A stretch of DNA of 64,000 bases. It comes from Isoperla grammatica. Its lineage: Eukaryota; Arthropoda; Insecta; Plecoptera; Perlodidae. The stretch covers positions 2,030,254 to 2,094,253 of the forward strand of contig OX246747.1 of the NCBI GenBank assembly GCA_945910005.1, written 5' to 3'. Below the pieces are notes generated by a model, which saw only the letters and a list, made by a program, of their open reading frames with translations, searched no databases and was not told the origin of the DNA. Below are positions 1-50,279 of the stretch, in pieces (within the stretch, counting starts at the first letter, position 1; each line of letters opens with the position of its first letter). The position numbers and the translations under genes are program-made.

Positions 1-3000
1 CTGCGTGGCCACCTCAGTGACCGGCCACTTAACATCACCATACAGAGGGCTCTGCGCTCGCTCACCTGGTGGCAGACACTGAAGCTGTCGTGGCACCTCG
101 TCATGAACAAGGAGCCAATCAGGTACAACCAGCATACGGTTCTAAGGCTGCGTGGCCACCTCAGTGACCGGCCACTTAACATCACCATACAGAGGGCTCT
201 GCGCTCGCTCACCTGGTGGCAGACACTGAAGCTGTCGTGGCACCTCGTCATGAACAAGGAGCCAATCAGGTACAACCAGCATACGGTTCTAAGGCTGCGT
301 GGCCACCTCAGTGACCAGCCACTTAACATCACCATACAGAGGGCTCGCTCACCTGGTGGCAGACACTGAAGCTGTCGTGGCACCTCGTCATGAACAAGGA
401 GCCAATCAGGTACAACCAGCATACGGTTCTAAGGCTGCGTGGCCACCTCAGTGACCGGCCACTTAACATCACCATACAGAGGGCTCGCTCACCTGGTGGC
501 AGACACTGAAGCTGTCGTGGCACCTCGTCATGAACAAGGAGCCAATCAGGTACAACCAGCATACGGTTCTAAGGCTGCGTGGCCACCTCAGTGACCAGCC
601 ACTTAACATCACCATACAGAGGGCTCTGCGCTCGCTCACCTGGTGGCAGACACTGAAGCTGTCGTGGCACCTCGTCATGAACAAGGAGCCAATCAGGTAC
701 AACCAGCATACGGTTCTAAGGCTGCGTGGCCACCTCAGTGACCGGCCACTTAACATAACCATACAGAGGGCTCGCTCACCTGGTGGCAGACACTGAAGCT
801 GTCGTGGCACCTCGTCATGAACAAGGAGCCAATCAGGTACAACCAGCATACGGTTCTAAGGCTGCGTGGCCACCTCAGTGACCGGCCACTTAACATCACC
901 ATACAGAGGGCTCGCTCACCTGGTGGCAGACACTGAAGCTGTCGTGGCACCTCGTCATGAACAAGGAGCCAATCAGGTACAACCAGCATACGGTTCTAAG
1001 GCTGCGTGGCCACCTCAGTGACCGGCCACTTAACATCACCATACAGAGGGCTCGCTCACCTGGTGGCAGACACTGAAGCTGTCGTGGCACCTCGTCATGA
1101 ACAAGGAGCCAATCAGGTACAACCAGCATACGGTTCTAAGGCTGCGTGGCCACCTCAGTGACCGGCCACTTAACATCACCATACAGAGGGCTCTGCGCTC
1201 GCTCACCTGGTGGCAGACACTGAAGCTGTCGTGGCACCTCGTCATGAACAAGGAGCCAATCAGGTACAACCAGCATACGGTTCTAAGGCTGCGTGGCCAC
1301 CTCAGTGACCGGCCACTTAACATAACCATACAGAGGGCTCGCTCACCTGGTGGCAGACACTGAAGCTGTCGTGGCACCTCGTCATGAACAAGGAGCCAAT
1401 CAGGTACAACCAGCATACGGTTCTAAGGCTGCGTGGCCACCTCAGTGACCGGCCACTTAACATCACCATACAGAGGGCTCGCTCACCTGGTGGCAGACAC
1501 TGAAGCTGTCGTGGCACCTCGTCATGAACAAGGAGCCAATCAGGTACAACCAGCATACGGTTCTAAGGCTGCGTGGCCACCTCAGTGACCGGCCACTTAA
1601 CATCACCATACAGAGGGCTCACTCACCTGGTGGCAGACACTGAAGCTGTCGTGGCACCTCGTCATGAACAAGGAGCCAATCAGGTACAACCAGCATACGG
1701 TTCTAAGGCTGCGTGGCCACCTCAGTGACCGGCCACTTAACATCACCATACAGAGGGCTCTGCGCTCGCTCACCTGGTGGCAGACACTGAAGCTGTCGTG
1801 GCACCTCGTCATGAACAAGGAGCCAATCAGGTACAACCAGCATACGGTTCTAAGGCTGCGTGGCCACCTCAGTGACCAGCCACTTAACATCACCATACAG
1901 AGGGCTCGCTCACCTGGTGGCAGACACTGAAGCTGTCGTGGCACCTCGTCATGAACAAGGAGCCAATCAGGTACAACCAGCATACGGTTCTAAGGCTGCG
2001 TGGCCACCTCAGTGACCGGCCACTTAACATCACCATACAGAGGGCTCTGCGCTCGCTCACCTGGTGGCAGACACTGAAGCTGTCGTGGCACCTCGTCATG
2101 AACAAGGAGCCAATCAGGTACAACCAGCATACGGTTCTAAGGCTGCGTGGCCACCTCAGTGACCGGCCACTTAACATCACCATACAGAGGGCTCGCTCAC
2201 CTGGTGGCAGACACTGAAGCTGTCGTGGCACCTCGTCATGAACAAGGAGCCAATCAGGTACAACCAGCATACGGTTCTAAGGCTGCGTGGCCACCTCAGT
2301 GACCGGCCACTTAACATCACCATACAGAGGGCTCGCTCACCTGGTGGCAGACACTGAAGCTGTCGTGGCACCTCGTCATGAACAAGGAGCCAATCAGGTA
2401 CAACCAGCATACGGTTCTAAGGCTGCGTGGCCACCTCAGTGACCGGCCACTTAACATCACCATACAGAGGGCTCGCTCACCTGGTGGCAGACACTGAAGC
2501 TGTCGTGGCACCTCGTCATGAACAAGGAGCCAATCAGGTACAACCAGCATACGGTTCTAAGGCTGCGTGGCCACCTCAGTGACCGGCCACTTAACATCAC
2601 CATACAGAGGGCTCTGCGCTCGCTCACCTGGTGGCAGACACTGAAGCTGTCGTGGCACCTCGTCATGAACAAGGAGCCAATCAGGTACAACCAGCATACA
2701 GTTCTAAGGCTGCGTGGCCACCTCAGTGACCGGCCACTTAACATCACCATACAGAGGGCTCGCTCACCTGGTGGCAGACACTGAAGCTGTCGTGGCACCT
2801 CGTCATGAACAAGGAGCCAATCAGGTACAACCAGCATACGGTTCTAAGGCTGCGTGGCCACCTCAGTGACCGGCCACTTAACATCACCATACAGAGGGCT
2901 CTGCGCTCGCTCACCTGGTGGCAGACACTGAAGCTGTCGTGGCACCTCGTCATGAACAAGGAGCCAATCAGGTACAACCAGCATACGGTTCTAAGGCTGC

Positions 3001-6000
3001 GTGGCCACCTCAGTGACCGGCCACTTAACATCACCATACAGAGGGCTCGCTCACCTGGTGGCAGACACTGAAGCTGTCGTGGCACCTCGTCATGAACAAG
3101 GAGCCAATCAGGTACAACCAGCATACGGTTCTAAGGCTGCGTGGCCACCTCAGTGACCGGCCACTTAACATCACCATACAGAGGGCTCGCTCACCTGGTG
3201 GCAGACACTGAAGCTGTCGTGGCACCTCGTCATGAACAAGGAGCCAATCAGGTACAACCAGCATACGGTTCTAAGGCTGCGTGGCCACCTCAGTGACCGG
3301 CCACTTAACATCACCATACAGAGGGCTCTGCGCTCGCTCACCTGGTGGCAGACACTGAAGCTGTCGTGGCACCTCGTCATGAACAAGGAGCCAATCAGGT
3401 ACAACCAGCATACGGTTCTAAGGCTGCGTGGCCACCTCAGTGACCGGCCACTTAACATCACCATACAGAGGGCTCGCTCACCTGGTGGCAGACACTGAAG
3501 CTGTCGTGGCACCTCGTCATGAACAAGGAGCCAATCAGGTACAACCAGCATACGGTTCTAAGGCTGCGTGGCCACCTCAGTGACCGGCCACTTAACATAA
3601 CCATACAGAGGGCTCGCTCACCTGGTGGCAGACACTGAAGTTGTGTGGCACCTCGTCATGAACAAGGAGCCAATCAGGTACAACCAGCATACGGTTCTAA
3701 GGCTGCGTGGCCACCTCAGTGACCGGCCACTTAACATCACCATACAGAGGGCTCGCTCACCTGGTGGCAGACACTGAAGCTGTCGTGGCACCTCGTCATG
3801 AACAAGGAGCCAATCAGGTACAACCAGCATACGGTTCTAAGGCTGCGTGGCCACCTCAGTGACCGGCCACTTAACATCACCATACAGAGGGCTCGCTCAC
3901 CTGGTGGCAGACACTGAAGCTGTCGTGGCACCTCGTCATGAACAAGGAGCCAATCAGGTACAACCAGCATACGGTTCTAAGGCTGCGTGGCCACCTCAGT
4001 GACCGGCCACTTAACATAACCATACAGAGGGCTCGCTCACCTGGTGGCAGACACTGAAGTTGTGTGGCACCTCGTCATGAACAAGGAGCCAATCAGGTAC
4101 AACCAGCATACGGTTCTAAGGCTGCGTGGCCACCTCAGTGACCGGCCACTTAACATCACCATACAGAGGGCTCGCTCACCTGGTGGCAGACACTGAAGCT
4201 GTCGTGGCACCTCGTCATGAACAAGGAGCCAATCAGGTACAACCAGCATACGGTTCTAAGGCTGCGTGGCCACCTCAGTGACCGGCCACTTAACATCACC
4301 ATACAGAGGGCTCTGCGCTCGCTCACCTGGTGGCAGACACTGAAGCTGTCGTGGCACCTCGTCATGAACAAGGAGCCAATCAGGTACAACCAGCATACGG
4401 TTCTAAGGCTGCGTGGCCACCTCAGTGACCAGCCACTTAACATCACCATACAGAGGGCTCGCTCACCTGGTGGCAGACACTGAAGCTGTCGTGGCACCTC
4501 GTCATGAACAAGGAGCCAATCAGGTACAACCAGCATACGGTTCTAAGGCTGTGTGGCCACCTCAGTGACCGGCCACTTAACATCACCATACAGAGGGCTC
4601 GCTCACCTGGTGGCAGACACTGAAGCTGTCGTGGCACCTCGTCATGAACAAGGAGCCAATCAGGTACAACCAGCATACGGTTCTAAGGCTGCGTGGCCAC
4701 CTCAGTGACCGGCCACTTAACATCACCATACAGAGGGCTCGCTCACCTGGTGGCAGACACTGAAGCTGTCGTGGCACCTCGTCATGAACAAGGAGCCAAT
4801 CAGGTACAACCAGCATACGGTTCTAAGGCTGCGTGGCCACCTCAGTGACCGGCCACTTAACATCACCATACAGAGGGCTCTGCGCTCGCTCACCTTGTGG
4901 CAGACACTGAAGCTGTCGTGGCACCTCGTCATGAACAAGGAGCCAATCAGGTACAACCAGCATACGGTTCTAAGGCTGCGTGGCCACCTCAGTGACCAGC
5001 CACTTAACATCACCATACAGAGGGCTCGCTCACCTGGTGGCAGACACTGAAGCTGTCGTGGCACCTCGTCATGAACAAGGAGCCAATCAGGTACAACCAG
5101 CATACGGTTCTAAGGCTGCGTGGCCACCTCAGTGACCGGCCACTTAACATCACCATACAGAGGGCTCTGCGCTCGCTCACCTGGTGGCAGACACTGAAGC
5201 TGTCGTGGCACCTCGTCATGAACAAGGAGCCAATCAGGTACAACCAGCATACGGTTCTAAGGCTGCGTGGCCACCTCAGTGACCGGCCACTTAACATCAC
5301 CATACAGAGGGCTCGCTCACCTGGTGGCAGACACTGAAGCTGTCGTGGCACCTCGTCATGAACAAGGAGCCAATCAGGTACAACCAGCATACGGTTCTAA
5401 GGCTGCGTGGCCACCTCAGTGACCGGCCACTTAACATCACCATACAGAGGGCTCGCTCACCTGGTGGCAGACACTGAAGCTGTCGTGGCACCTCGTCATG
5501 AACAAGGAGCCAATCAGGTACAACCAGCATACGGTTCTAAGGCTGCGTGGCCACCTCAGTGACCGGCCACTTAACATCACCATACAGAGGGCTCGCTCAC
5601 CTGGTGGCAGACACTGAAGCTGTCGTGGCACCTCGTCATGAACAAGGAGCCAATCAGGTACAACCAGCATACGGTTCTAAGGCTGCGTGGCCACCTCAGT
5701 GACCGGCCACTTAACATCACCATACAGAGGGCTCGCTCACCTGGTGGCAGACACTGAAGCTGTCGTGGCACCTCGTCATGAACAAGGAGCCAATCAGGTA
5801 CAACCAGCATACGGTTCTAAGGCTGCGTGGCCACCTCAGTGACCGGCCACTTAACATCACCATACAGAGGGCTCGCTCACCTGGTGGCAGACACTGAAGC
5901 TGTCGTGGCACCTCGTCATGAACAAGGAGCCAATCAGGTACAACCAGCATACGGTTCTAAGGCTGCGTGGCCACCTCAGTGACCGGCCACTTAACATCAC

Positions 6001-7538
6001 CATACAGAGGGCTCGCTCACCTGGTGGCAGACACTGAAGCTGTCGTGGCACCTCGTCATGAACAAGGAGCCAATCAGGTACAACCAGCATACGGTTCTAA
6101 GGCTGCGTGGCCACCTCAGTGACCGGCCACTTAACATCACCATACAGAGGGCTCGCTCACCTGGTGGCAGACACTGAAGCTGTCGTGGCACCTCGTCATG
6201 AACAAGGAGCCAATCAGGTACAACCAGCATACGGTTCTAAGGCTGCGTGGCCACCTCAGTGACCGGCCACTTAACATCACCATACAGAGGGCTCTGCGCT
6301 CGCTCACCTGGTGGCAGACACTGAAGCTGTCGTGGCACCTCGTCATGAACAAGGAGCCAATCAGGTACAACCAGCATACGGTTCTAAGGCTGCGTGGCCA
6401 CCTCAGTGACCGGCCACTTAACATCACCATACAGAGGGCTCGCTCACCTGGTGGCAGACACTGAAGCTGTCGTGGCACCTCGTCATGAACAAGGAGCCAA
6501 TCAGGTACAACCAGCATACGGTTCTAAGGCTGCGTGGCCACCTCAGTGACCGGCCACTTAACATCACCATACAGAGGGCTCGCTCACCTGGTGGCAGACA
6601 CTGAAGCTGTCGTGGCACCTCGTCATGAACAAGGAGCCAATCAGGTACAACCAGCATACGGTTCTAAGGCTGCGTGGCCACCTCAGTGACCGGCCACTTA
6701 ACATCACCATACAGAGGGCTCGCTCACCTGGTGGCAGACACTGAAGCTGTCGTGGCACCTCGTCATGAACAAGGAGCCAATCAGGTACAACCAGCATACG
6801 GTTCTAAGGCTGCGTGGCCACCTCAGTGACCGGCCACTTAACATAACCATACAGAGGGCTCGCTCACCTGGTGGCAGACACTGAAGCTGTCGTGGCACCT
6901 CGTCATGAACAAGGAGCCAATCAGGTACAACCAGCATACGGTTCTAAGGCTGCGTGGCCACCTCAGTGACCGGCCACTTAACATCACCATACAGAGGGCT
7001 CTGCGCTCGCTCACCTGGTGGCAGACACTGAAGCTGTCGTGGCACCTCGTCATGAACAAGGAGCCAATCAGGTACAACCAGCATACGGTTCTAAGGCTGC
7101 GTGGCCCCCTCAGTGACCGGCCACTTAACATCACCATACAGAGGGCTCGCTCACCTGGTGGCAGACACTGAAGCTGTCGTGGCACCTCGTCATGAACAAG
7201 GAGCCAATCAGGTACAACCAGCATACGGTTCTAAGGCTGCGTGGCCACCTCAGTGACCAGCCACTTAACATCACCATACAGAGGGCTCTGCGCTCGCTCA
7301 CCTGGTGGCAGACACTGAAGCTGTCGTGGCACCTCGTCATGAACAAGGAGCCAATCAGGTACAACCAGCATACGGTTCTAAGGCTGCGTGGCCACCTCAG
7401 TGACCGGCCACTTAACATCACCATACAGAGGGCTCGCTCACCTGGTGGCAGACACTGAAGCTGTCGTGGCACCTCGTCATGAACAAGGAGCCAATCAGGT
7501 ACAACCAGCATACGGTTCTAAGGCTGCGTGGCCACCTA
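1..7538 (+). repeat. 140/147-bp tandem array of a TRABD exon (about 53 copies)
   Basis: About 53 head-to-tail units, starting before the window and ending in a partial copy at about 7538. The full unit is 147 bp. In frame it encodes a segment (LSDRPLNITIQRALRSLTWW, then QTLKLSWHLVMNKEPI) that corresponds to the TraB-domain stretch just upstream of the ISKEEVERCK segment encoded by the exon at 8546. Each unit keeps the exon end CCAATCAG followed by GTACAA, a good 5' splice site; ATCAG joined to the C at 8546 gives the expected Ile-Ser codons. Fifteen units are 147 bp. Most others are 140 bp because they lack TGCGCTC, and two carry a further 1-bp loss near 3640 and 4060. Seen: the repeats, the frame and the donor. 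Known: TraB family similarity. Inferred: the array grew from the real exon. The 5' edge of the exon within the unit is uncertain. Confidence 0.9.
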
Positions 7539-17015: not shown

Positions 17016-17066
17016 AAATCGAAATTCAGAACTAACAACTCCCCTATCCTACCGTACCAAAATCCG

Positions 17067-29102: not shown

Positions 29103-31668
29103 CTGCCGCCTCCCTCATCGTGTAATGAAGCATGCATCAATAATGCATGTACTGCATGCATGCATGTGTGGTGCGACAATACAACATACTGGATCATATT
29201 GTTGCAGGAACGCCTTACTACGCTGTAGCAGGTACGCTTTACTACGCTGTTGCAGGTACGCTTTACTACGCTGTAGCAGGTACGCTTTACTACACTGTTG
29301 CAGGTACGCTTTACTACGCTGTAGCAGGTACACTTTACTACGCTGTTGCAGGTACGCTTTACTACGCTGTTGCAGGTACGCTTTACTACGCTGTTGCAGG
29401 TACGCTTTACTACGCTGTTGCAGGTACGCTTTACTACGCTGTTGCAGGTACGCTTTACTACGCTGTTGCAGGTACGCTTTACTACACTGTTGCAGGTACG
29501 CTTTACTACGCTGTAGCAGGTACGCTTTACTACGCTGTAGCAGGTACGCTTTACTACGCTGTAGCAGGTACGCTTTACTACGCTGTGCAGGTACGCTTTA
29601 CTACGCTGTAGCAGGTACGCTTTACTACGCTGTTGCAGGTACGCTTTACTACGCTGTGCAGGTACGCTTTACTACGCTGTAGCAGGTACGCTTTACTACG
29701 CTGTAGCAGGTACGCTTTACTACGCTGTTGCAGGTACGCTTTACTACGCTGTTGCAGGTACGCCTTACTACACTGTTGCAGGTACGCTTTACTACACTGT
29801 TGCAGCAACGCTTTACTACACTGTTGCGGGTACGCTTTACTACGCTGTTGCAGGTACGCTTTACTACACTGTTGCAGGTACGCTTTACTACGCTGTTGCA
29901 GCAACGCTTTACTACACTGTTGCGGGTACGCTTTACTACGCTGTTGCAGGTACGCTTTACTACGCTGTAGCAGGTACGCTTTACTACGCTGTAGCAGGTA
30001 CGCTTTACTACGCTGTAGCAGGTACGCTTTACTACGCTGTTGCAGGTACGCTTTACTACGCTGTTGCAGGTACGCTTTACTACACTGTTGCAGGTACGCT
30101 TTACTACACTGTTGCAGATACGCTTTACTACACTGTTGCAGGTACGCTTTACTACACTGTTGCAGGTACGCTTTACTACGCTGTTGCAGGTACGCTTTAC
30201 TACGCTGTTGCAGGTACGCTTTACTCTTACTACGCTGTTGCAGGTACGCTTTACTACACTGTTGCAGGTACGCATTACTACACTGTTGCAGGTACGCTTT
30301 ACTACGCTGTTGCAGGTACGCTTTACTACACTGTTGCAGGTACGCTTTACTACGCTGTTGCAGGTACGCTTTACTACGCTGTTGCAGGTACGCTTTACTG
30401 CACTGTTGCAGGTACGCTTTACTACGCTGTTGCAGGTACGCTTTACTGCACTGTTGCAGGTACGCTTTACTACGCTGTAGCAGGTACGCCTTACTACACT
30501 GTTGCAGGTACGCTTTACTGCACTGTTGCAGGTACGCTTTACTACACTGTTGCAGGTACGCTTTACTGCACTGTTGCAGGTACGCTTTACTACGCTGTAG
30601 CAGGTACGCCTTACTACACTGTTGCAGGTACGCTTTACTACACTGTTGCAGCAACGCTTTACTACACTGTTGCGGGTACGCTTTACTACGCTGTTGCAGG
30701 TACGCTTTACTACGCTGTTGCAGAAACGCTTTACTACACTGTTGCGGGTACGCTTTACTACGCTGTTGCAGGTACTCTTTACTACACTGTTGCAGATACG
30801 CTTTACTACACTGTTGCAGGTACGCTTTACTACACTGTTGCGGGTACGCTTTACTACGCTGTTGCAGGTACTCTTTACTACACTGTTGCAGATACGCTTT
30901 ACTACACTGTTGCAGGTACGCTTTACTACACTGTTGCAGGTACGCTTTACTACGCTGTTGCAGCAACGCTTTACTACGCTGTTGCAGGTACGCCTTACTA
31001 CACTGTTGCAGCAACGCTTTACTACACTGTTGCGGGTACGCTTTACTACGCTGTTGCAGGTACGCTTTACTACACTGTTGCAGGTACGCTTTACTACGCT
31101 GTTGCAGCAACGCTTTACTACACTGTTGCGGGTACGCTTTACTACGCTGTTGCAGGTACGCTTTACTACACTGTTGCAGCAACGCTTTACTACACTGTTG
31201 CGGGTACGCTTTACTACGCTGTTGCAGGTACGCTTTACTACACTGTTGCAGGTACGCTTTACTACACTGTTGCAGGTACGCTTTACTACACTGTTGCAGG
31301 TACGCCTTACTACGCTGTTGCAGGTACGCTTTACTACACTGTTGCAGGTACGCTTTACTACACTGTTGCAGGTACGCTTTACTACGCTGTTGCAGGTACG
31401 CTTTACTACGCTGTTGCAGGTACGCTTTACTACACTGTTGCAGGTACGCTTTACTACGCTGTTGCAGGTACGCTTTACTACACTGTTGCAGGTACGCTTT
31501 ACTACGCTGTTGCAGGTACGCTTTACTACACTGTTGCAGGTACGCTTTACTACGCTGTTGCAGGTACTCTTTACTACACTGTTGCAGGTACACTTTACTA
31601 CGCTGTGCAGGTACGCTTTACTACGCTGTTGCAGGTACGCTTTACTACACTCTATGAGGGAGGCGGCA
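29103..31668. mobile_element. Inverted-repeat element carrying a 24-bp minisatellite
   Basis: TGCCGCCTCCCTCAT (29103-29117) and ATGAGGGAGGCGGCA (31654-31668) are a perfect 15-bp inverted pair at the two edges of the minisatellite. Non-autonomous DNA elements with an internal tandem array are known in invertebrates. Here the match is short and no target duplication is clear, so the assignment is an inference. Confidence 0.5.
29201..31653. repeat. 24-bp minisatellite, about 102 copies
   Basis: Unit GGTACGCTTTACTACGCTGT plus TGCA, with variants at fixed positions (CGCTG/CACTG, TTGCAG/TAGCAG, GGTACG/GCAACG). A few units are 23 bp and one has an extra six bases near 30220. Because 24 is divisible by three, several phases stay open for about 670 codons on both strands. 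These give strings such as QQRSKAYL and CCRYALLR, which I regard as noncoding. Each unit contains TTGCAG followed by GTAC, acceptor- and donor-like words back to back. Confidence 0.97.
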
Positions 31669-32345: not shown

Positions 32346-32775
32346 GGCGGTGATACGCCCACGGCTATAACTCATAGATATACACCCACGGCTATACGCC
32401 CACGGCTATACGCCCTCGGCTATAACCCACAGCTATACGCCCACAGCTATACGCCCACGGCTATAACTCATAGGTATACACCCACGGCTATAACTCATAG
32501 ATATTCATCCACGGCTATAATTCATAGATATACGCCCACGGCAATAACTCATAGATATACACCCACGGCTATAACTCATAGATATACACCCACGGCTATA
32601 CGCCCACAGCTATAACTCATAGATATACACCCACGGCTATACGCCCTCGGCTATAACTCATAGATAAACACCCAGGCTATACGCCCACAGCTATAACTCA
32701 TAGATATACACCCACGGCTATACGCCCACAGCTATAACTCATAGATATACACCCACGACTATACGCCCATAGCTA
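32346..32775. repeat. Degenerate CACGGCTATA/AACTCATAGATATA repeats
   Basis: Mixed short units (ACGCCCACGGCTAT, ACTCATAGATATACACCC) in irregular order. They merge into the 13-bp array on the right. Confidence 0.85.
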
Positions 32776-33012
32776 TACACCAACGCTATACACCAACGCT
32801 ATACACCAACGCTATACACCAACGCTATACACCAACGCTATACACCAACGCTATACACCAACGCTATACACCAACGCTATACACCAACGCTATACACCAA
32901 CGCTATACACCAACGCTATACACCAACGCTATACACCAACGCTATACACCAACGCTATACACCAACGCTATACACCAACGCTATACACCAACGCTATACA
33001 CCAACGCTATAC
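32776..33012. repeat. 13-bp minisatellite, about 18 copies
   Basis: Near-perfect GCTATACACCAAC units, directly downstream (minus strand) of the TLDc stop codon, so probably transcribed as 3'UTR. Confidence 0.95.
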
Positions 33013-33020
33013 GCCCATAG

Positions 33021-33156
33021 CTATACGAACTCCCAACACTCTAACGTGAGTATATGAAAGTCCTCATGCGATGAAAGGCGCTCGTTGTCGAATGTCTTGC
33101 AGGGCTCAGTTCTCCCCTTATCGAGGTCTTGGTCCACCCACAGGCCGCACTTTCCG
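33021..33156 (-). CDS. TLDc domain protein, final coding exon
   Basis: The minus strand has acceptor GTCTGTGTTGCAG ending at 33157, then 136 bp to TAG at 33023-33021. The one leading base completes the codon split at 35925. It encodes GKCGLWVDQDLDKGRTEPCK, then TFDNERLSSHEDFHI and a terminal ECWEFV. This is the C-terminal third of a TLDc domain (GLW-x-D-x-D...G.S..C.TF.N..LS..EDF.I...E.W.F), ending exactly where TLDc proteins such as OXR1, NCOA7 and TLDC2 end. TLDc proteins bind V-ATPase and act in oxidative-stress defence; that is family knowledge. Confidence 0.92.
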
Positions 33157-35735
33157 CTGCAACACAGACACATTCACATTCACTGTGCACATACTGATGC
33201 ATTCATTCACCCACAGGCCGCACTTTCCGCTGCAACACAGACACATTCACATTCACTGTGCACAAACTGATGCATTCATTCACCCACAGGCCGCACTTTC
33301 CGCTGCAACACAGACACATTCACATTCACTGTGCACATACTGATGCATTCATTCACCCACAGGCCGCACTTTCCGCTGCAACACAGACACATTCACATTC
33401 ACTGTGCACATACTGATGCATTCATTAACAGGCTGCACATTCCGCTGCAACACAGACACATTCACATTCACTGTGCACATACTGATGCATTCATTCACCC
33501 ACAGGCCGCACTTTCCGCTGCAACACAGACACATTCACATTCACTGTGCACATACTGATGCATTCATTCACCCACAGGCCGCACTTTCCGCTGCAACACA
33601 GACACATTCACATTCACTGTGCACAAACTGATGCATTCATTCACCCACAGGCCGCACTTTCCGCTGCAACACAGACACATTCACATTCACTGTGCACATA
33701 CTGATGCATTCATTCACCCACAGGCCGCACTTTCCGCTGCAACACAGACACATTCACATTCACTGTGCACATACTGATGCATTCATTAACAGGCTGCACA
33801 TTCCGCTGCAACACAGACACATTCACATTCACTGTGCACATACTGATGCATTCATTCACCCACAGGCCGCACTTTCCGCTGCAACACAGACACATTCACA
33901 TTCACTGTGCACATACTGATGCATTCATTCACCCACAGGCCGCACTTTCCGCTGCAACACAGACACATTCACATTCACTGTGCACATACTGATGCATTCA
34001 TTCACCCACAGGCCGCACTTTCCGCTGCAACACAGACACATTCACATTCACTGTGCACATACTGATGCATTCATTCACCCACAGGCCGCACTTTCCGCTG
34101 CAACACAGACACATTCACATTCACTGTGCACATACTGATGCATTCATTCACCCACAGGCCGCACTTTCCGCTGCAACACAGACACATTCACATTCACTGT
34201 GCACATACTGATGCATTCATTCACCCACAGGCCGCACTTTCCGCTGCAACACAGACACATTCACATTCACTGTGCACATACTGATGCATTCATTCACCCA
34301 CAGGCCGCACTTTCCGCTGCAACACAGACACATTCACATTCACTGTGCACATACTGATGCATTCATTAACAGGCTGCACATTCCGCTGCAACACAGACAC
34401 ATTCACATTCACTGTGCACATACTGATGCATTCATTCACCCACAGGCCGCACTTTCCGCTGCAACACAGACACATTCACATTCACTGTGCACATACTGAT
34501 GCATTCATTCACCCACAGGCCGCACTTTCCGCTGCAACACAGACACATTCACATTCACTGTGCACATACTGATGCATTCATTCACCCACAGGCCGCACTT
34601 TCCGCTGCAACACAGACACATTCACATTCACTGTGCACATACTGATGCATTCATTCACCCACAGGCCGCACTTTCCGCTGCAACACAGACACATTCACAT
34701 TCACTGTGCACATACTGATGCATTCATTAACAGGCTGCACATTCCGCTGCAACACAGACACATTCACATTCACTGTGCACATACTGATGCATTCATTCAC
34801 CCACAGGCCGCACTTTCCGCTGCAACACAGACACATTCACATTCACTGTGCACATACTGATGCATTTATTCACCCACAGGCCGCACTTTCCGCTGCAACA
34901 CAGACACATTCACATTCACTGCGCACAAACTGATGCATTCATTCACCCACAGGCCGCACTTTCCGCTGCAACACAGACACATTCACATTCACTGTGCACA
35001 TACTGATGCATTCATTCACCCACAGGCCGCACTTTCCGCTGCAACACAGACACATTCACATTCACTGTGCACATACTGATGCATTCATTCACCCACAGGC
35101 CGCACTTTCCGCTGCAACACAGACACATTCACATTCACTGTGCACATACTGATGCATTCATTCACCCACAGGCCGCACTTTCCGCTGCAACACAGACACA
35201 TTCACATTCACTGTGCACAAACTGATGCATTCATTCACCCACAGGCCGCACTTTCCGCTGCAACACAGACACATTCACATTCACTGTGCACATACTGATG
35301 CATTCATTCACCCACAGGCCGCACTTTCCGCTGCAACACAGACACATTCACATTCACTGTGCACATACTGATGCATTCATTCACCCACAGGCCGCACTTT
35401 CCGCTGCAACACAGACACATTCACATTCACTGTGCACATACTGATGCATTCATTCACCCACAGGCCGCACTTTCCGCTGTAACACAGACACATTCACATT
35501 CACTGTGCACATACTGATGCATTCATTCACTCACAGGCCGCACTTTCCGCTGCAACACAGACACATTCACATTCACTGTGCACAAACTGATGCATTCATT
35601 CACCCACAGGCCGCACTTTCCGCTGCAACACAGACACATTCACATTCACTGTGCACATACTGATGCATTCATTCACCCACAGGCCGCACTTTCCGCTGCA
35701 ACACAGACACATTCACATTCACTGTGCACATACAT
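33130..35735 (-). repeat. 73-bp minisatellite made from the TLDc splice acceptor, about 36 copies
   Basis: Unit AGGCCGCACTTTCCGCTGCA, then ACACAGACACATTCACATTC, ACTGTGCACATACTGATGCA and TTCATTCACCCAC (plus strand). On the transcribed minus strand each unit contains TGTCTGTGTTGCAG followed by CGGAAAGTGCGGCCTGTGG, i.e. the 3' splice site and first 19 bases of the exon at 33156. Four or more units are a 69-bp variant (ATTAACAGGCTGCACA). Blocks of 361 bp recur at 33331/33692 and 34272/34633. The AG is kept in every unit I read, including the changed GTTACAG unit near 35479. Confidence 0.95.
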
Positions 35736-35915
35736 TCATTCAATCATGCATTCATTCATTTTATTATTTTTTTATTCATTCATTCATTCATTCATTCACT
35801 TGTTCATTTATTCATTCATTCATTCATTTATTCATTCATTTATTTAGTTAATTATTTATTCTATCATTTATTCATTCATTTATTCATTCATTCATTTTTT
35901 TATTTATTCATTAAT
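35736..35915. repeat. (ATTC)n/(ATTT)n tetranucleotide repeat
   Basis: Runs straight on from the 73-bp array. The ATTC word also occurs in each 73-bp unit, so the two repeats probably grew together. Confidence 0.95.
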
Positions 35916-35924
35916 TATACTCAC

Positions 35925-36100
35925 TCCCCGCCTCCAATTGAGAGACACTCTCTCTTGGCTAGGATGAAGTTCATGTTGCATCCGGTCCACTTGAAAACTT
36001 TGAACTCGGGGGTGAAGCGGAAGAGGAAAGACTGTCCCGTGCCGAAGATGTGTTCACGATGAGTCAACTTGGGGGCGCAGGAGAGGACCGCCCCGAACAC
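35925..36100 (-). CDS. TLDc domain protein, penultimate coding exon
   Basis: Minus strand: acceptor GTTTCCTCGACAG, 176 bp, donor GGGGA followed by GTGAGT. Encodes VFGAVLSCAPKL, then the TLDc signature FGTGQSFLFRFTPEFKVFKW and TGCNMNF, ending in SIGGG. It joins in phase to the upstream exon (phase 0) and to the final exon (two bases left over). Family members have GTG(E/Q)(S/T)F(L/V)(F/Y) here. Confidence 0.93.
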
Positions 36101-37105: not shown

Positions 37106-37381
37106 GTTGCTCTCGTCGTCTCGCATGATGAGCAGAACCGGCCCTTCTATGTCCAACATCAGCCGGTAGAGTGAGTGGAGACAGAAGCCGTGTTGTGACG
37201 TAGAGAAGGCCAGCGACCAATCATGTCCCTCCGTGCAGGCCATCATGTGAGGACACAGCTTCATGCGGTGATCCTCGGTCAGGATCTCAGTCGAGCCTAT
37301 CAGGTCCGTCAGGTAGAGCCCGCTCAGAGACGTGACGCTGTTGTAGATAGCGCGGCAGAGCGCCTCGTTGATGGCCAGAAC
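37106..37381 (-). CDS. TLDc domain protein, exon with the domain start
   Basis: Minus strand: acceptor GTGTGTTGTGCAG, 276 bp (92 codons, phase 0 both sides), donor GCAAC followed by GTGAGC. Encodes LAINEALCRAIYNSVTSLSG, then a LIGSTEILTEDH stretch, DWSLAFSTSQHGFCLHSLYR and GPVLLIMRDDES. These match the TLDc opening (W.L.YST..HG.SL..LYR.M....PVLL.I.D). The N-terminal rest of the protein is not identified. The domain resembles OXR1/NCOA7/TLDC2 more than TBC1D24 or MEAK7, but the exact orthologue is open, so no symbol is given. Confidence 0.9.
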
Positions 37382-38140: not shown

Positions 38141-41100
38141 ACGAGCCGGTACGCCTAGCGGCTACACAACAGACGTACCGATAAAAGCCAAAGCTTCACA
38201 CTATAGCCGGTACGCCTAGAGGCTAACACAACAGACGTACCGATAAAAGCCAAAGCTTCACACTATAGCCGGTACGCTTAGCGGCTAACACAACAGACGT
38301 ACCGATAAAAGCCAAAGCTTCACACTATAGCCGGTACGCCTAGCGGCTAACACAACAGACGTACCGATAAAAGCCGAAGCTTCACACTATAGCCAGTACG
38401 CCTGGAGGCTTACACAACAGACGTACCGATAAAAGCCAAAGCTTCACACTATAGCCGGTACGCCTAGCGGCTAACACAACAGACGTACCGATAAAAGCCA
38501 AAGCTTCACACTATATAGCCAGTACGCCTAGCGGCTAACACAACAGACGTACCGATAAAAGCCAAAGCTTCACACTATAGCCGGTACGCTTAGCGGCTAA
38601 CACAACAGACGTACCGATAAAAGCCAAAGCTTCACACTATAGCCGGTACGCTTAGAGGCTAACACAACAGACGTACCGATAAAAGCCAAAGCTTCACACT
38701 ATAGCCAGTACGCCTAGCGGCTAACACAACAGACGTACCGATAAAAGCCAAAGCTTGACACTATAGCCGGTACGCTTAGAGGCTAACACAACAGACGTAC
38801 CGATAAAAGCCAAAGCTTCACACTATAGCCGGTACGCCTGGAGGCTAACACAACAGACGTACCGATAAAAGCCAAAGCTTCACACTATAGCCGGTACGCC
38901 TAGCGGCTAACACAACAGACGTACCGATAAAAGCCAAAGCTTGACACTATAGCCGGTACGCTTAGCGGCTAACACAACAGACGTACCGATAAAAGCCAAA
39001 GCTTCACACTATAGCCAGTACGCCTAGCGGCTAACACAACAGACGTACCGATAAAAGCCAAAGCTTCACACTATAGCCGGTACGCTTAGAGGCTAACACA
39101 ACAGACGTACCGATAAAAGCCAAAGCTTCACACTATAGCCGGTACGCCTGGAGGCTAACACAACAGACGTACCGATAAAAGCCAAAGCTTCACACTATAG
39201 CCGGTACGCCTAGCGGCTAACACAACAGACGTACCGATAAAAGCCAAAGCTTGACACTATAGCCGGTACGCTTAGCGGCTAACACAACAGACGTACCGAT
39301 AAAAGCCAAAGCTTCACACTATAGCCAGTACGCCTGGAGGCTAACACAACAGACGTACCGATAAAAGCCAAAGCTTGACACTATAGCCGGTACGCTTAGC
39401 GGCTAACACAACAGACGTACCGATAAAAGCCAAAGCTTCACACTATAGCCAGTACGCTTAGCGGCTAACACAACAGACGTACCGATAAAAGCCAAAGCTT
39501 CACACTATAGCCAGTACGCCTGGAGGCTAACACAACAGACGTACCGATAAAAGCCAAAGCTTCACACTATAGCCAGTACGCCTAGCGGCTAACACAACAG
39601 ACGTACCGATAAAAGCCAAAGCTTCACACTATAGCCGGTACGCCTAGCGGCTAACACAACAGACGTACCGATAAAAGCCAAAGCTTCACACTATAGCCGG
39701 TACGCTTAGAGGCTAACACAACAGACGTACCGATAAAAGCCAAAGCTTCACACTATAGCCGGTACGCCTAGCGGCTAACACAACAGACGTACCGATAAAA
39801 GCCAAAGCTTCACACTATAGCCAGTACGCCTAGCGGCTAACACAACAGACGTACCGATAAAAGCCAAAGCTTCACACTATAGCCAGTACGCCTGGAGGCT
39901 AACACAACAGACGTACCGATAAAAGCCAAAGCTTCACACTATAGCCGGTACGCCTAGCGGCTAACACAACAGACGTACCGATAAAAGCCAAAGCTTCACA
40001 CTATAGCCGGTACGCCTAGCGGCTAACACAACAGACGTACCGATAAAAGCCAAAGCTTCACACTATAGCCGGTACGCTTAGAGGCTAACACAACAGACGT
40101 ACCGATAAAAGCCAAAGCTTCACACTATAGCCGGTACGCCTAGCGGCTAACACAACAGACGTACCGATAAAAGCCAAAGCTTCACACTATAGCCGGTACG
40201 CCTAGCGGCTAACACAACAGACGTACCGATAAAAGCCAAAGCTTCACACTATAGCCGGTACGCCTAGCGGCTAACACAACAGACGTACCGATGAAAGCCA
40301 AAGCTTGACACTATAGCCGGTACGCCTGGAGGCTAACACAACAGACGTACCGATAAAAGCCAAAGCTTCACACTATAGCCGGTACGCCTAGCGGCTAACA
40401 CAACAGACGTACCGATAAAAGCCAAAGCTTCACACTATAGCCGGTACGCCTAGCGGCTAACACAACAAAGGTACCGATAAAAGCCAAAGCTTCACACTAT
40501 AGCCGGTACGCTTAGAGGCTAACACAACAGACGTACCGATAAAAGCCAAAGCTTCACACTATAGCCGGTACGCCTAGCGGCTAACACAACAGACGTACCG
40601 ATAAAAGCCAAAGCTTCACACTATAGCCAGTACGCCTAGCGGCTAACACAACAGACGTACCGATAAAAGCCAAAGCTTCACACTATAGCCAGTACGCCTG
40701 GAGGCTAACACAACAGACGTACCGATAAAAGCCAAAGCTTCACACTATAGCCGGTACGCCTAGCGGCTAACACAACAGACGTACCGATAAAAGCCAAAGC
40801 TTCACACTATAGCCGGTACGCCTAGCGGCTAACACAACAGACGTACCGATAAAAGCCAAAGCTTCACACTATAGCCGGTACGCTTAGAGGCTAACACAAC
40901 AGACGTACCGATAAAAGCCAAAGCTTCACACTATAGCCGGTACGCCTAGCGGCTAACACAACAGACGTACCGATAAAAGCCAAAGCTTCACACTATAGCC
41001 GGTACGCCTAGAGGCTAACACAACAGACGTACCGATAAAAGCCAAAGCTTCACACTATAGCCGGTACGCCTAGCGGCTAACACAACAGACGTACCGATAA

Positions 41101-41181
41101 AAGCCAAAGCTTCACACTATAGCCGGTACGCCTAGCGGCTAACACAACAGACGTACCGATAAAAGCCAAAGCTTCACACTA
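38141..41181. repeat. 62-bp tandem repeat, about 49 copies
   Basis: Unit starts AGCCGGTACGCCTAGCGGCT and continues through CAGACGTACCGATAAAAGCC to CAAAGCTTCACACTAT. Every unit has a HindIII word (AAGCTT) and a short GGTACG...CGTACC inverted pair. Variant letters (CCTAGC/CTTAGA/CCTGGA, CTTCAC/CTTGAC) recur in patterns, suggesting multi-unit duplication steps. Confidence 0.97.
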
Positions 41182-41199
41182 TCTGTCACATAGCTGTTG

Positions 41200-42942: not shown

Positions 42943-43106
42943 TCGAGCCTTGTGTTTGAATAGCTTGATGAGAAACATATTGTTCCTTAGTTAAAGCTTT
43001 CCCCCACGCAGCAACCACGGACGGGAACGAAACAAAAGTCTCAACCATCGGTGGCTCCGAGGTCAACTTGGCAACTGCGCCACACAGCGTCTCGGCCAAC
43101 TTCTTA
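42943..43106 (-). CDS. Possible coding exon next to the 63/64-bp array
   Basis: The minus strand is open from about 43106 (CACTATAAG as a weak acceptor) to a good donor GGCTCGA followed by GTGAGT at 42942. It encodes KKLAETLCGAVAKLTSEPPM, then VETFVSFPSVVAAWGKALTK and EQYVSHQAIQTQGS. It looks protein-like but matches no family I know. It could be an upstream exon of the TLDc gene, but its donor phase (one base left) does not fit the acceptor at 37381 (phase 0), so a further exon would be needed. Confidence 0.3.
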
Positions 43107-44447
43107 TAGTGTCACTCGATGGCTGCTCAACTTGGCAACTGCGCCTCACAGCGTCTCGGCCAACTTCTTATAGTGTCACTCGATGGCTGCTCAACTTGGC
43201 AACTGCGCCTCACAGCGTCTCGGCAACTTCTTATAGTGTCACTCGATGGCTGCTCAGCTTGGCAACTGCGCCTCACAGCGTCTCGGCCAACTTCTTATAG
43301 TGTCACTCGATGGCTGCTCAACTTGGCAACTGCGCCTCACAGCGTCTCGGCCAACTTCTTATAGTGTCACTCGATGGCTGCTCAACTTGGCAACTGCGCC
43401 TCACAGCGTCTCGGCAACTTCTTATAGTGTCACTCGATGGCTGCTCAGCTTGGCAACTGCGCCTCACAGCGTCTCGGCCAACTTCTTATAGTGTCACTCG
43501 ATGGCTGCTCAACTTGGCAACTGCGCCTCACAGCGTCTCGGCCAACTTCTTATAGTGTCACTCGATGGCTGCTCAGCTTGGCAACTGCGCCTCACAGCGT
43601 CTCGGCCAACTTCTTATAGTGTCACTCGATGGCTGCTCAACTTGGCAACTGCGCCTCACAGCGTCTCGGCAACTTCTTATAGTGTCACTCGATGGCTGCT
43701 CAACTTGGCAACTGCGCCACACAGCGTCTCGGCAACTTCTTATAGTGTCACTCGATGGCTGCTCAACTTGGCAACTGCGCCTCACAGCGTCTCGGCAACT
43801 TCTTATAGTGTCACTTGATGGCTGCTCAACTTGGCAACTGCGCCTCACAGCGTCTCGGCAACTTCTTATAGTGTCACTCGATGGCTGCTCAACTTGGCAA
43901 CTGCGCCTCACAGCGTCTCGGCAACTTCTTATAGTGTCACTCGATGGCTGCTTAACTTGGCAACTGCGCCTCACAGCGTCTCGGCAACTTCTTATAGTGT
44001 CACTTGATGGCTGCTCAACTTGGCAACTGCGCCACACAGCGTCTCGGCAACTTCTTATAGTGTCACTCGATGGCTGCTCAACTTGGCAACTGCGCCTCAC
44101 AGCGTCTCGGCAACTTCTTATAGTGTCACTCGATGGCTGCTCAACTTGGCAACTGCGCCTCACAGCGTCTCGGCAACTTCTTATAGTGTCACTCGATGGC
44201 TGCTCAACTTGGCAACTGCGCCTCACAGCGTCTCGGCAACTTCTTATAGTGTCACTCGATGGCTGCTCAACTTGGCAACTGCGCCACACAGCGTCTCGGC
44301 AACTTCTTATAGTGTCACTCGATGGCTGCTCAACTTGGCAACTGCGCCTCACAGCGTCTCGGCAACTTCTTATAGTGTCACTCGATGGCTGCTCAACTTG
44401 GCAACTGCGCCTCAAGGCGTCTCGGCCAACTTCTTATAGTGTCTTAT
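43050..44447. repeat. 63/64-bp tandem repeat, about 22 copies
   Basis: Unit starts ACTTCTTATAGTGTCACTCG and continues ATGGCTGCTCAACTTGGCAA to GCGTCTCGGCCA. The 63-bp form lacks one C in GGCC. The 63-bp stretch (about 43620-44415) therefore stays open in several phases. The unit overlaps the first about 40 bases of the exon candidate at 43106. Confidence 0.96.
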
Positions 44448-44800: not shown

Positions 44801-47800
44801 GTGTAAATCTATATCATATAACATCGTGGGTCTCATATGGGCGTATGAACCATCATAAGATGTGTGTACATCTATATCATATAACATCGTGGGTCTCATA
44901 TGGGCGTATGAACCATCATAAGATGTGTGTACATCTATATCATATAACATCGTGGGTCTCATATGGACGTATGAACCATCATAAGATGTGTGTACATCTA
45001 TATCATATAACATCGTGGGTCTCATATGGGCGTATGAACCATCATAAGATGTGTGTACATCTATATCATATAACATCGTGGGTCTCATATGGACGTATGA
45101 ACCATCATAAGATGTAGTGTACATCTATATCATATAACATCGTGGGTCTCATATGGACGTATGAACCATCATAAGATGTGTGTACATCTATATCATATAA
45201 CATCGTGGGTCTCATATGGGCGTATGAACCATCATAAGATGTGTGTACATCTATATCATATAACATCGTGGGTCTCATATGGACGTATTAACCATCATAA
45301 GATGTGTGTAAATCTATATCATATAACATCGTGGGTCTCATATGGGCGTATGAACCATCATAAGATGTGTGTACATCTATATCATATAACATCGTGGGTC
45401 TCATATGGGCGTATGAACCATCATAAGATGTGTGTACATCTATATCATATAACATCGTGGGTCTCATATGGGCGTATGAACCATCATAAGATGTGTGTAC
45501 ATCTATATCATATAACATCGTGGGTCTCATATGGGCGTATGAACCATCATAAGATGTGTGTACATCTATACCATATAACATCGTGGGTCTCATATGGGCG
45601 TATGAACCATCATAAGATGTGTGTACATCTATATCATATAACATCGTGGGTCTCATATGGGCGTATGAACCATCATAAGATGTGTGTACATCTATATCAT
45701 ATAACATCGTGGGTCTCATATGGGCGTATGAACCATCATAAGATGTGTGTACATCTATATCATATAACATCGTGGGTCTCATATGGACGTATGAACCATC
45801 ATAAGATGTGTGTACATCTATATCATATAACATCGTGGGTCTCATATGGGCGTATGAACCATCATAAGATGTGTGTACATCAATATCATATAACATCGTG
45901 GGTCTCATATGGACGTATGAACCATCATAAGATGTGTGTACATCTATATCATATAACATCGTGGGTCTCATATGGACGTATGAACCATCATAAGATGTGT
46001 GTACATCTATATCATATAACATCGTGGGTCTCATATGGGCGTATGAACCATCATAAGATGTGTGTACATCTATATCATATAACATCGTGGGTCTCATATG
46101 GACGTATGAACCATCATAAGATGTAGTGTACATCTATATCATATAACATCGTGGGTCTCATATGGACGTATGAACCATCATAAGATGTAGTGTACATCTA
46201 TATCATATAACATCGTGGGTCTCATATGGACGTATGAACCATCATAAGATGTGTGTACATCTATATCATATAACATCGTGGGTCTCATATGGACGTATGA
46301 ACCATCATAAGATGTAGTGTACATCTATATCATATAACATCGTGGGTCTCATATGGACGTATGAACCATCATAAGATGTGTGTACATCTATATCATATAA
46401 CATCGTGGGTCTCATATGGGCGTATGAACCATCATAAGATGTGTGTACATCTATATCATATAACATCGTGGGTCTCATATGGACGTATGAACCATCATAA
46501 GATGTAGTGTACATCTATATCATATAACATCGTGGGTCTCATATGGACGTATGAACCATCATAAGATGTGTGTACATCTATATCATATAACATCGTGGGT
46601 CTCATATGGGCGTATGAACCATCATAAGATGTGTGTACATCTATATCATATAACATCGTGGGTCTCATATGGGCGTATGAACCATCATAAGATGTGTGTA
46701 CATCTATATCATATAACATCGTGGGTCTCATATGGACGTATGAACCATCATAAGATGTAGTGTACATCTATATCATATAACATCGTGGGTCTCATATGGA
46801 CGTATGAACCATCATAAGATGTGTGTACATCTATATCATATAACATCGTGGGTCTCATATGGGCGTATGAACCATCATAAGATGTGTGTACATCTATATC
46901 ATATAACATCGTGGGTCTCATATGGACGTATTAACCATCATAAGATGTGTGTAAATCTATATCATATAACATCGTGGGTCTCATATGGGCGTATGAACCA
47001 TCATAAGATGTGTGTACATCTATATCATATAACATCGTGGGTCTCATATGGGCGTATGAACCATGTGTGTACATCTATGTCATATAACATCGTGGGTCTC
47101 ATATGGGCGTATGAACCATCATAAGATGTGTGTACATCTATATCATATAACATCGTGGGTCTCATATGGACGTATGAACCATCATAAGATGTAGTGTACA
47201 TCTATATCATATAACATCGTGGGTCTCATATGGACGTATGAACCATCATAAGATGTGTGTACATCTATATCATATAACATCGTGGGTCTCATATGGACGT
47301 ATGAACCATCATAAGATGTGTGTACATCTATATCATATAACATCGTGGGTCTCATATGGACGTATGAACCATCATAAGATGTAGTGTACATCTATATCAT
47401 ATAACATCGTGGGTCTCATATGGACGTATGAACCATCATAAGATGTGTGTACATCTATATCATATAACATCGTGGGTCTCATATGGGCGTATGAACCATC
47501 ATAAGATGTGTGTACATCTATATCATATAACATCGTGGGTCTCATATGGACGTATTAACCATCATAAGATGTGTGTAAATCTATATCATATAACATCGTG
47601 GGTCTCATATGGGCGTATGAACCATCATAAGATGTGTGTACATCTATATCATATAACATCGTGGGTCTCATATGGGCGTATGAACCATCATAAGATGTGT
47701 GTACATCTATATCATATAACATCGTGGGTCTCATATGGGCGTATGAACCATCATAAGATGTGTGTACATCTATATCATATAACATCGTGGGTCTCATATG

Positions 47801-50265
47801 GGCGTATGAACCATCATAAGATGTGTGTACATCTATACCATATAACATCGTGGGTCTCATATGGGCGTATGAACCATCATAAGATGTGTGTACATCTATA
47901 TCATATAACATCGTGGGTCTCATATGGGCGTATGAACCATCATAAGATGTGTGTACATCTATATCATATAACATCGTGGGTCTCATATGGGCGTATGAAC
48001 CATCATAAGATGTGTGTACATCTATATCATATAACATCGTGGGTCTCATATGGACGTATGAACCATCATAAGATGTGTGTACATCTATATCATATAACAT
48101 CGTGGGTCTCATATGGGCGTATGAACCATCATAAGATGTGTGTACATCAATATCATATAACATCGTGGGTCTCATATGGACGTATGAACCATCATAAGAT
48201 GTGTGTACATCTATATCATATAACATCGTGGGTCTCATATGGGCGTATGAACCATCATAAGATGTGTGTACATCTATATCATATAACATCGTGGGTCTCA
48301 TATGGGCGTATGAACCATCATAAGATGTGTGTACATCTATATCATATAACATCGTGGGTCTCATATGGGCGTATGAACCATGTGTGTACATCTATATCAT
48401 ATAACATCGTGGGTCTCATATGGGCGTATGAACCATCATAAGATGTGTGTACATCTATATCATATAACATCGTGGGTCTCATATGGGCGTATGAACCATG
48501 TGTGTACATCTATATCATATAACATCGTGGGTCTCATATGGGCGTATGAACCATCATAAGATGTGTGTACATCTATATCATATAACATCGTGGGTCTCAT
48601 ATGGGCGTATGAACCATGTGTGTACATCTATATCATATAACATCGTGGGTCTCATATAGGCGTATGAACCATCATAAGATGTGTGTACATCTATATCATA
48701 TAACATCGTGGGTCTCATATGGGCGTATGAACCATCATAAGATGTGTGTACATCTATATCATATAACATCGTGGGTCTCATATGGGCGAATGAACCATGT
48801 GTGTACATCTATATCATATAACATCGTGGGTCTCATATGGGCGTATGAACCATCATAAGATGTGTGTACATCTATATCATATAACATCGTGGGTCTCATA
48901 TGGGCGTATGAACCATGTGTGTACATCTATATCATATAACATCGTGGGTCTCATATGGGCGTATGAACCATCATAAGATGTGTGTACATCTATATCATAT
49001 AACATCGTGGGTCTCATATGGGCGTATGAACCATGTGTGTACATCTATATCATATAACATCGTGGGTCTCATATAGGCGTATGAACCATCATAAGATGTG
49101 TGTACATCTATATCATATAACATCGTGGGTCTCATATGGGCGTATGAACCATCATAAGATGTGTGTACATCTATATCATATAACATCGTGGGTCTCATAT
49201 GGGCGTATGAACCATGTGTGTACATCTATGTCATATAACATCGTGGGTCTCATATGGGCGTATGAACCATCATAAGATGTGTGTACATCTATATCATATA
49301 ACATCGTGGGTCTCATATGAGCGTATGAACCATCATAAGATGTGTGTACATCTATATCATATAACATCGTGGGTCTCATATGGGCGTATGAACCATCATA
49401 AGATGTGTGTACATCTATATCATATAACATCGTGGGTCTCATATGGGCGTATGAACCATGTGTGTACATCTATGTCATATAACATCGTGGGTCTCATATG
49501 GGCGTATGAACCATCATAAGATGTGTGTACATCTATATCATATAACATCGTGGGTCTCATATGAGCGTATGAACCATCATAAGATGTGTGTACATCTATA
49601 TCATATAACATCGTGGGTCTCATATGGGCGTATGAACCATCATAAGATGTGTGTACATCTATATCATATAACATCGTGGGTCTCATATGGGCGTATGAAC
49701 CATCATAAGATGTGTGTACATCTATATCATATAACATCGTGGGTCTCATATGGGCGTATGAACCATGTGTGTACATCTATGTCATATAACATCGTGGGTC
49801 TCATATGGGCGTATGAACCATCATAAGATGTGTGTACATCTATATCATATAACATCGTGGGTCTCATATGGACGTATGAACCATCATAAGATGTGTGTAC
49901 ATCTATATCATATAACATCGTGGGTCTCATATGGGCGTATGAACCATCATAAGATGTGTGTACATCTATATCATATAACATCGTGGGTCTCATATGGGCG
50001 TATGAACCATCATAAGATGTGTGTACATCTATATCATATAACATCGTTGGTCTCATATGGGCGTATGAACCATCATAAGATGTGTGTACATCTATATCAT
50101 ATAACATCGTGGGTCTCATATGGACGTATGGACCATCATAAGATGTGTGTACAACTATATCATATAACATCGTGGGTCTCATATGGGCGTATGAACCATC
50201 ATAAGATGTGTGTACATCTATATCATATAACATCGTGGGTCTCATAAGCGCGTATGAACCATCAT
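44801..50265. repeat. 63-bp tandem repeat, about 87 copies, with multi-unit duplications
   Basis: Unit CATCTATATCATATAACATC, GTGGGTCTCATATGGGCGTA, TGAACCATCATAAGATGTGT, GTA. Variants: 65 bp (GTAGTGTA) and a short unit lacking CATCATAAGAT. Marker variants (GTATTAACC with GTAAATC, ATCAATATC, ATACCATA) recur in the same order starting at 45161 and 47428, showing a duplication of more than 1 kb. Shorter block repeats start at 48616/49033 and 49214/49458/49765. Long frames in both strands arise because 63 is divisible by three. Confidence 0.97.
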
Positions 50266-50279
50266 AATATTCTACAAGT

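Follow-up and report, generated by a model that had tools for sequence, protein, structure and literature searches.

A TLDc-gene intron in Isoperla grammatica consisting almost entirely of tandem copies of its own 3' splice site

We found that the last intron of a TLDc gene in the plecopteran Isoperla grammatica is occupied almost entirely by a minisatellite whose units each carry a copy of the intron's own 3' splice site. The gene lies on the minus strand of the window, by which we mean the whole 64,000-nucleotide stretch of DNA analyzed here (G000:C15:2030254-2094253 of a searched assembly of 874 Mb and 603 contigs). The intron (33157..35924, 2768 nt) holds 36 acceptors, the true one being the last, at 33157, and the 73-bp array accounts for 93% of it. 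The same architecture, with the true splice site at one end of a series of copies, was observed at other exons of this genome. We consider it very probable that the array is what has been called a 'mirage' in amphioxus: a segment spanning an intron/exon boundary that would have been tandemly duplicated and amplified, leaving decoy sites that are mostly ignored by the splicing machinery. The array, the true acceptor, the ancestry of the intron and the arrays at other exons can be read directly from the DNA, and from them we infer both how the array was duplicated and that the decoys are disregarded.

The identity of the gene was established from three coding exons on the minus strand. These are VLAINEALC...DDESN (37106..37381; donor AAC/GTGAGC, the slash marking the splice boundary here and below), recognized by its match to Pfam TLD, VFGAVLSC...IGGG (35925..36100, ending GGA/GTGAGT), placed by in-frame joining and its TLDc match, and the last coding exon GKCGLWVDQDL...CWEFV with stop codon TAG (33021..33156), placed by frame and aligned relatives. 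An initial TLDc search matched one of 77 candidate proteins. The three exons (37381-37106, 36100-35925 and 33156-33021) join in frame, and the resulting protein, extended upstream by seven residues, matches Pfam PF07534 at 3.1e-44 over profile positions 3-169 of 170, which bears out the placement of the gene and its last intron in a first-pass annotation of this DNA. The joined protein agrees at 51% with a Penaeus chinensis TLD2-like protein and matches 11 distinct solved sequences, 4acj being the best. Among the best 120 of 462 matches to the TLDc profile, those carrying organism names are arthropods, in a sample biased by the shrimp sequence included in the profile. A simple scan did not find the first exon of the gene, and the window yielded no match to Rfam and no tRNA. 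At its other end the gene runs into a second array of 13/41-bp units (32353..33026, minus strand; GTATAGC..., GTATAGCGTTGGTG on that strand; TRF and sequence), which starts within the last codon and stop codon (GTATAG), so that the last exon is flanked by arrays on both sides and the gene end itself lies inside a minisatellite.

The window analysis by TRF gave a 73-bp period with 35.8 copies and 97% matches (33135..35733, minus strand), and reading of the individual units gave 36 acceptors, in line with the roughly 36 copies of the 3' splice site reported in the first-pass annotation. A degenerate (AATG)n microsatellite of about 190 nt (35734..35916, minus strand; sequence and TRF) separates the donor from the array, and the intron is thus nearly all 73-bp repeat plus short-unit repeat, as had been described. 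The flank upstream of the array reads AAAATGAATGAATGC. Each unit comprises 54 intron-type bases, ending in the 14-mer TGTCTGTGTTGCAG, and 19 exon-derived bases; compared with the real boundary, the usual unit takes in about 51 bases from the intron end and 22 from the exon start, and 22 bases of the real exon (33135-33156) fall within the array. The earlier description of units carrying the first 19 exon bases is therefore right for the stretch that precedes the donor-like GT and too short for most units, which share 22. On the minus strand the acceptors read TTGCAG in 35 cases and TTACAG in one, and they are spaced 73 bp apart, or 69 bp after four variant units. The 35 decoys, with their last intron-type base at 33230, 33303 and so on to 35696, are each followed by exon-derived bases. 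Among the 35 complete units, 24 are identical, seven show one or two base differences and the remaining four, a variant of 69 bp, lack the donor-like site; the unit types are set apart by about eight mutational differences. A donor-like GG/GTGAAT had been assigned to every unit; it is present as TGG/GTGAAT in 30 of the 35 decoy units, while one has CCT/GTGAGT and four have neither. Unit types recur as blocks five units apart (for example, AAFABA). A genome search that skipped very common words placed the first 26 bases of the real exon at 31 sites with up to three mismatches, all of them inside the TLDc array, which identifies the array as a local expansion.

That the last copy is the real acceptor, as the first-pass annotation had it, is established by the TLDc frame, by homology and by a paralogue. 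The aspartate at the exon junction aligns to aspartate in 111 of 120 relatives, and 115 of the 120 are aligned on both sides of the junction without insertion, the remainder comprising four with gaps beside the junction and one with an insertion. In the latter, P0233, alone among the aligned relatives, 24 extra residues fall precisely on the junction; a gene model that kept an intron might explain them. The genome contains 11 TLD exon matches, including a paralogue on contig 16 (C16) and a match on the small contig C521; for a TLDc copy on C12, 421 bp were read between two matches. The last exon of the C16 paralogue is identical to that of the window gene at 44 of the first 60 bases, and its intron, of 627 nt, has the same position and phase (GA/GTGAGT ... 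TTTGCAG/CGGCAAGTTCGGTCTGTGG, the acceptor reading TTTGCAG/CGG). This paralogous intron contains no minisatellite, just four low-scoring short repeats. The intron therefore predates the array; it was the acceptor region that supplied the array's sequence, and the acceptor does not owe its existence to the array. The first-pass annotation had named an array unrelated to the acceptor, in a comparison with relatives, as the result that would speak against it; here the C16 paralogue served in place of a relative, and it shows the acceptor region to be the source of the array. The paralogue also bears on the idea that the intron was newly gained through tandem duplication of exon sequence, a role as intron creators having been proposed for mirages in the accessible text of PMC3087553. 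Since the array-free C16 copy shares this intron, position and phase included, we rate the chance of such a gain as close to nil; it is refuted at this site unless both introns arose independently.

Under the preferred explanation, a short segment over the intron/exon boundary (about 51 intron and 22 exon bases) would have been duplicated in tandem. The first duplication can be read as exon GGGTG joined to intron TGAATG with a two-base overlap; where the real exon continues from GGGTG into GACC, the array units continue from GGGTG into AATG. Unequal exchange or slippage might then have amplified the segment to 36 copies, and the unit-type blocks recurring five units apart would fit later unequal exchange. 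Because the duplicated exon piece ends each copy, leaving the rest of the exon attached to none but the outermost, a real acceptor is expected to come last and a real donor first; this arrangement is a geometric consequence of tandem duplication, and selection is not needed to explain it. Microhomology at the breakpoints amounts to two bases at the TLDc array and to six bases at both donor-type arrays described below (CCACCT at the TraB exon, CGGGCT at the ABC-transporter exon). By our own arithmetic, a six-base identity has a probability of about one in 700 per array for random breakpoints, and these identities would fit tandem duplication at microhomology; the mere two bases at the TLDc array count against it there. 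Mis-assembly could in principle have inflated or collapsed the copy number, long near-identical arrays being error-prone and the amphioxus BflGb6 array having looked aberrantly assembled in a draft (PMC3087553, as far as its available text goes), but the point differences and the four 69-bp variants are arranged in a block structure and the same topology occurs at five different exons, TLDc included, which makes an artefact very improbable.

What distinguishes the real acceptor from its copies is not apparent in the sites themselves. On a rough frequency-based score, all 36 acceptors reach 4.81 and are the best AGs of the intron; on the same scale the decoy donors score 5.04 against 5.68 for the real donor, one unit scores higher (6.63), and the intron-type part holds 36 instances of a further donor-like AAT/GTGAAT (5.38). 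Around the boundary, most decoys and the real site agree over no fewer than 51 bases on the upstream side and 22 on the downstream side. Occlusion of the decoys by RNA structure was rejected, since predicted folds of three 146-nt stretches around real and decoy acceptors were no stabler than shuffles (z 0.66, 1.61 and 1.28). As nothing local was found to separate real from decoy and the difference begins past the 22 exon bases, we infer that exon definition makes the choice: each decoy has only 19-22 exon-like bases behind it, with no exon body or gene end that would define a terminal exon. The decoys are thus most likely ignored or rarely used, although the equal acceptor scores count against this, as does the position of the first decoy, 229 nt from the donor, which would be favoured under a first-come rule.

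The consequences of decoy use can be predicted. A last exon started at any of the 35 decoys, with no further splicing, would lose the real C-terminus in 35 of 35 cases, giving a shorter tail in 31 and a longer but unrelated tail in four. Inclusion of one, two, four or five 19-nt micro-exons would likewise break the TLDc C-terminus, in agreement with the frame shift anticipated in the first-pass annotation, while three or six would keep the frame and add 19 or 38 residues with the TLDc end intact. Very short exons are hard to define. The array might nonetheless be a working source of splice variants, in which a decoy acceptor together with GTGAAT yields 19-nt micro-exons or other C-termini; 30 of the 35 decoy units do combine an acceptor, 19 nt and a donor-like site, the decoy donors score near the real one, and some micro-exon numbers preserve the frame. 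However, no single-decoy outcome among the 35 keeps the real C-terminus, most of the micro-exon numbers considered break it, and amphioxus mirages reportedly coexist with normal splicing (PMC3087553, accessible in part). We therefore regard a working source of variants as unlikely, and of the two possibilities raised in the first-pass annotation, a hazard that the cell tolerates and a source of variants, the amphioxus precedent would favour the former.

Arrays of the same kind, which the first-pass annotation had not linked to the TLDc array, were found at other exons. At the left end of the window, a donor-type array of 140/147-bp units (1..7537, plus strand; TRF and sequence), continuing to the left (L015 9155-10000), lies at the 3' end of a TraB-family exon. 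The donor of this exon, ATCAG/GTACAACC, recurs 59 times, of which 53 are in the window as CCAATCAG/GTACAACC, and the true one heads the series at C15:2029522, a position 732 bases to the left of the window. The exon gave no Pfam match; its assignment comes from TIGR00261 (4.1e-11, 42 bits), under the whole-protein cut-off of 178 for a query of one exon. The 14-mer at the end of the intron-type part of the TLDc unit occurs at 548 places in the genome, compared with 13 for the reversed pattern. Eight loci were extracted for this 14-mer (L001-L008), and in two of them an exon bears an array of this kind. One is an ABC-transporter exon (C1), assigned by a Pfam match of 0.0015 on a fragment, under the cut-off, with 110 copies of its donor spread over 12.2 kb and the real exon at the head of the series; the other, L005, has about two acceptor copies. 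The 14-mer also led to an array on contig 8 (C8) with 122 acceptors over 15.5 kb and the real exon last. These last three arrays are a non-random sample of exons, since an acceptor motif led to them. Separately, the 108-bp unit of the ABC array (C1:105056086-105068287; L003, L016 and L036) is an open frame in the few copies translated, other copies differing in length; given this open frame, a retained ABC intron would encode repeated Walker-A segments. In L007, a 54-bp repeat of 2.8 copies (2862-3014) runs off the locus end about 1.3 kb from an acceptor-like 14-mer.

How often such arrays should be expected depends on the repeat content of the genome. Tandem repeats make up 43% of the window and 20% of 19 random 10-kb regions from five contigs, a sample that is uneven (0 to 41% tandem). 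The repetition itself is no matter of chance, but in a window so rich in repeats the contact of an array with an exon edge is less remarkable. Random placement of the arrays, judged on the 43,724 of 200,000 trials that left the three TLDc exons mostly free, touched at least one exon edge in 15% of cases and at least two in 0.8%; two contacts are observed, at the acceptor and at the stop codon, in what is a post hoc comparison with the TraB exon outside the test. Splice-like signals showed no general enrichment in 34 minisatellite units taken from the window, its right-hand flank and the random regions (median p 0.60 for acceptors and 0.47 for donors, against mononucleotide shuffles); p was below 0.05 in 2 of 34 units for acceptors and 4 of 34 for donors, the TLDc unit itself giving 0.19 and 0.46. 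An amplifier specific to splice sites was rejected on this ground, and nothing special about splice sites needs to be invoked.

A looser acceptor motif, YYTGTGTTGCAGG, was found at 627 places and its reversed pattern at 51. Of the 100 places that head the listing, 73 are single sites and 27 belong to seven tandem clusters of 2-8 exact copies, so that 7 of 80 acceptor-like loci are tandem (4 of 80 with at least three copies) and would be candidate exon-edge arrays. The ABC and L005 arrays score as single places in this count, their motif copies being inexact or unrepeated. For comparison, 2.7% of 13-mer loci in the 19 random regions are tandem (1.4% with at least three copies), with a region mean of 4.5%. 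The difference between 7 of 80 and 2.7% has a nominal p of 0.006 (0.027 for at least three copies) when loci are taken as independent, and it is weak since the random regions are uneven; it is suggestive of acceptor-like motifs being tandem more often than random 13-mers. It is quite possible, if short of probable, that the arrays reach exon edges by chance with no link to splice sites, a reading that concerns their frequency only and leaves their structure as in the preferred explanation. With tandem repeats at 20% of the random regions, chance would by itself place many arrays at exon edges, the 34 units show no enrichment of splice signals, and contact with at least one edge has a 15% chance. 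Against chance overlap stand the 0.8% for two TLDc edges, post hoc as this figure is, with the TraB exon besides, and the excess of tandem acceptor-like loci, which is weaker when set against the region mean of 4.5%. We put forward tentatively a broader proposition, that exon-edge minisatellites are pervasive in this genome, affecting several percent of boundaries in both polarities with up to more than 100 copies, and that the spliceosome ignores the decoys by a rule lying outside the splice site.

The window contains further repeats and mobile elements. On the plus strand, a 24-bp array of about 102 copies (29200-31648; TGTTGCAGGTACGCTTTACTACGC) has the consensus CAG/GTACGC, an acceptor and a donor back to back, of the recursive or dual-specific type. 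Between 36905 and 63991 TRF marks ten more arrays, their units ranging from 15 to 150 bp, and a period of 62-63 bp is common to four arrays (38144-41182, 43063-44443, 44801-50267 and 53840-55158). A Pao-type retrotransposon on the minus strand (11807-17048) has two overlapping open frames (Peptidase_A17, DUF1759 and DUF5641); among the best 120 of 1854 matches to a Pao open frame, those carrying organism names are arthropods. Two nearly identical cysteine-rich open frames in opposite orientation (61498-61917, minus strand, and 62856-63284, plus strand) lie between 150-bp repeats (60610-61186 and 63585-63991) and are probably a transposon or an inverted copy.

It has long been asked how one splice site is chosen when many sequences match, and the TLDc, C8 and ABC exons set dozens to more than 100 near-identical sites in series, with the real one marked only beyond the repeat unit. 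An arthropod genome with several mirages would widen the phenomenon, and it would bear on how introns might be seeded by boundary duplications. Were exon-edge arrays indeed pervasive, the genome would put exon definition to a large-scale test by nature, and new introns and exons could continually arise from it.

Several known systems resemble these arrays in part. The AGGT repeats of human UBC (PMC10809524, from the text available) are likewise tandem units that each carry splice signals, but there one AGGT is both donor and acceptor. The TLDc intron has the donor GGA/GTGAGT and the array units have the acceptor CAG/CGG with a GT 19 bases further on; an array of dual-specific splice sites was rejected, the unit acceptor containing no AGGT, and so was a recursive site with a zero-length exon, given the distance to the GT. 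Intron gain by tandem genomic duplication, as described in the accessible part of PMC4974935, also sets splice signals in series, whereas the TLDc intron, to judge from the paralogue, already existed. Human internal tandem repeats at exon-intron boundaries (PMC2812944, seen in part) are similar in being minisatellites that change exon/intron structure, and differ in having units of 30 bp on average, repeated four times, in segmental duplications.

The closest parallel is with a little-studied kind, the tandem repeats of intron/exon boundaries named mirages in amphioxus, known, from the available portions of the two papers, at Adh3, the globins BflGb6 and BflGb9, and PGBD5 (PMC3087553, PMC3902484). 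BflGb6 is reported with 6 and 3 units in two haplotypes and BflGb9 with a duplicate (PMC3087553), and the PGBD5 mirages have repeats of 60 and 108 bp, present in 2-7 copies (PMC3902484). Splice signals are present in many mirage units, RT-PCR suggests normal splicing (PMC3087553), and mirages are reported not to disturb splicing (PMC3087553, PMC3902484). In the literature searched, mostly without subscription journals, boundary arrays called mirages were found from amphioxus only among the matches listed. The TLDc array has tandem units across the exon/intron boundary, the authentic boundary at the array edge and attached to the rest of the exon, and splice signals in its units (AG in 36 of 36, a donor-like site in 31 of 35 decoy units), and by its sequence fits the structural definition of a mirage. 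As in amphioxus, so far as those sources describe it, minisatellite-like units span the boundary at acceptors or donors, many carry AG or GT, and the authentic boundary is kept; unlike there, the host is an arthropod and the copies number 36 to 122 in four arrays and about two in the fifth, the larger counts exceeding those reported in the accessible texts for BflGb6, BflGb9 and PGBD5.
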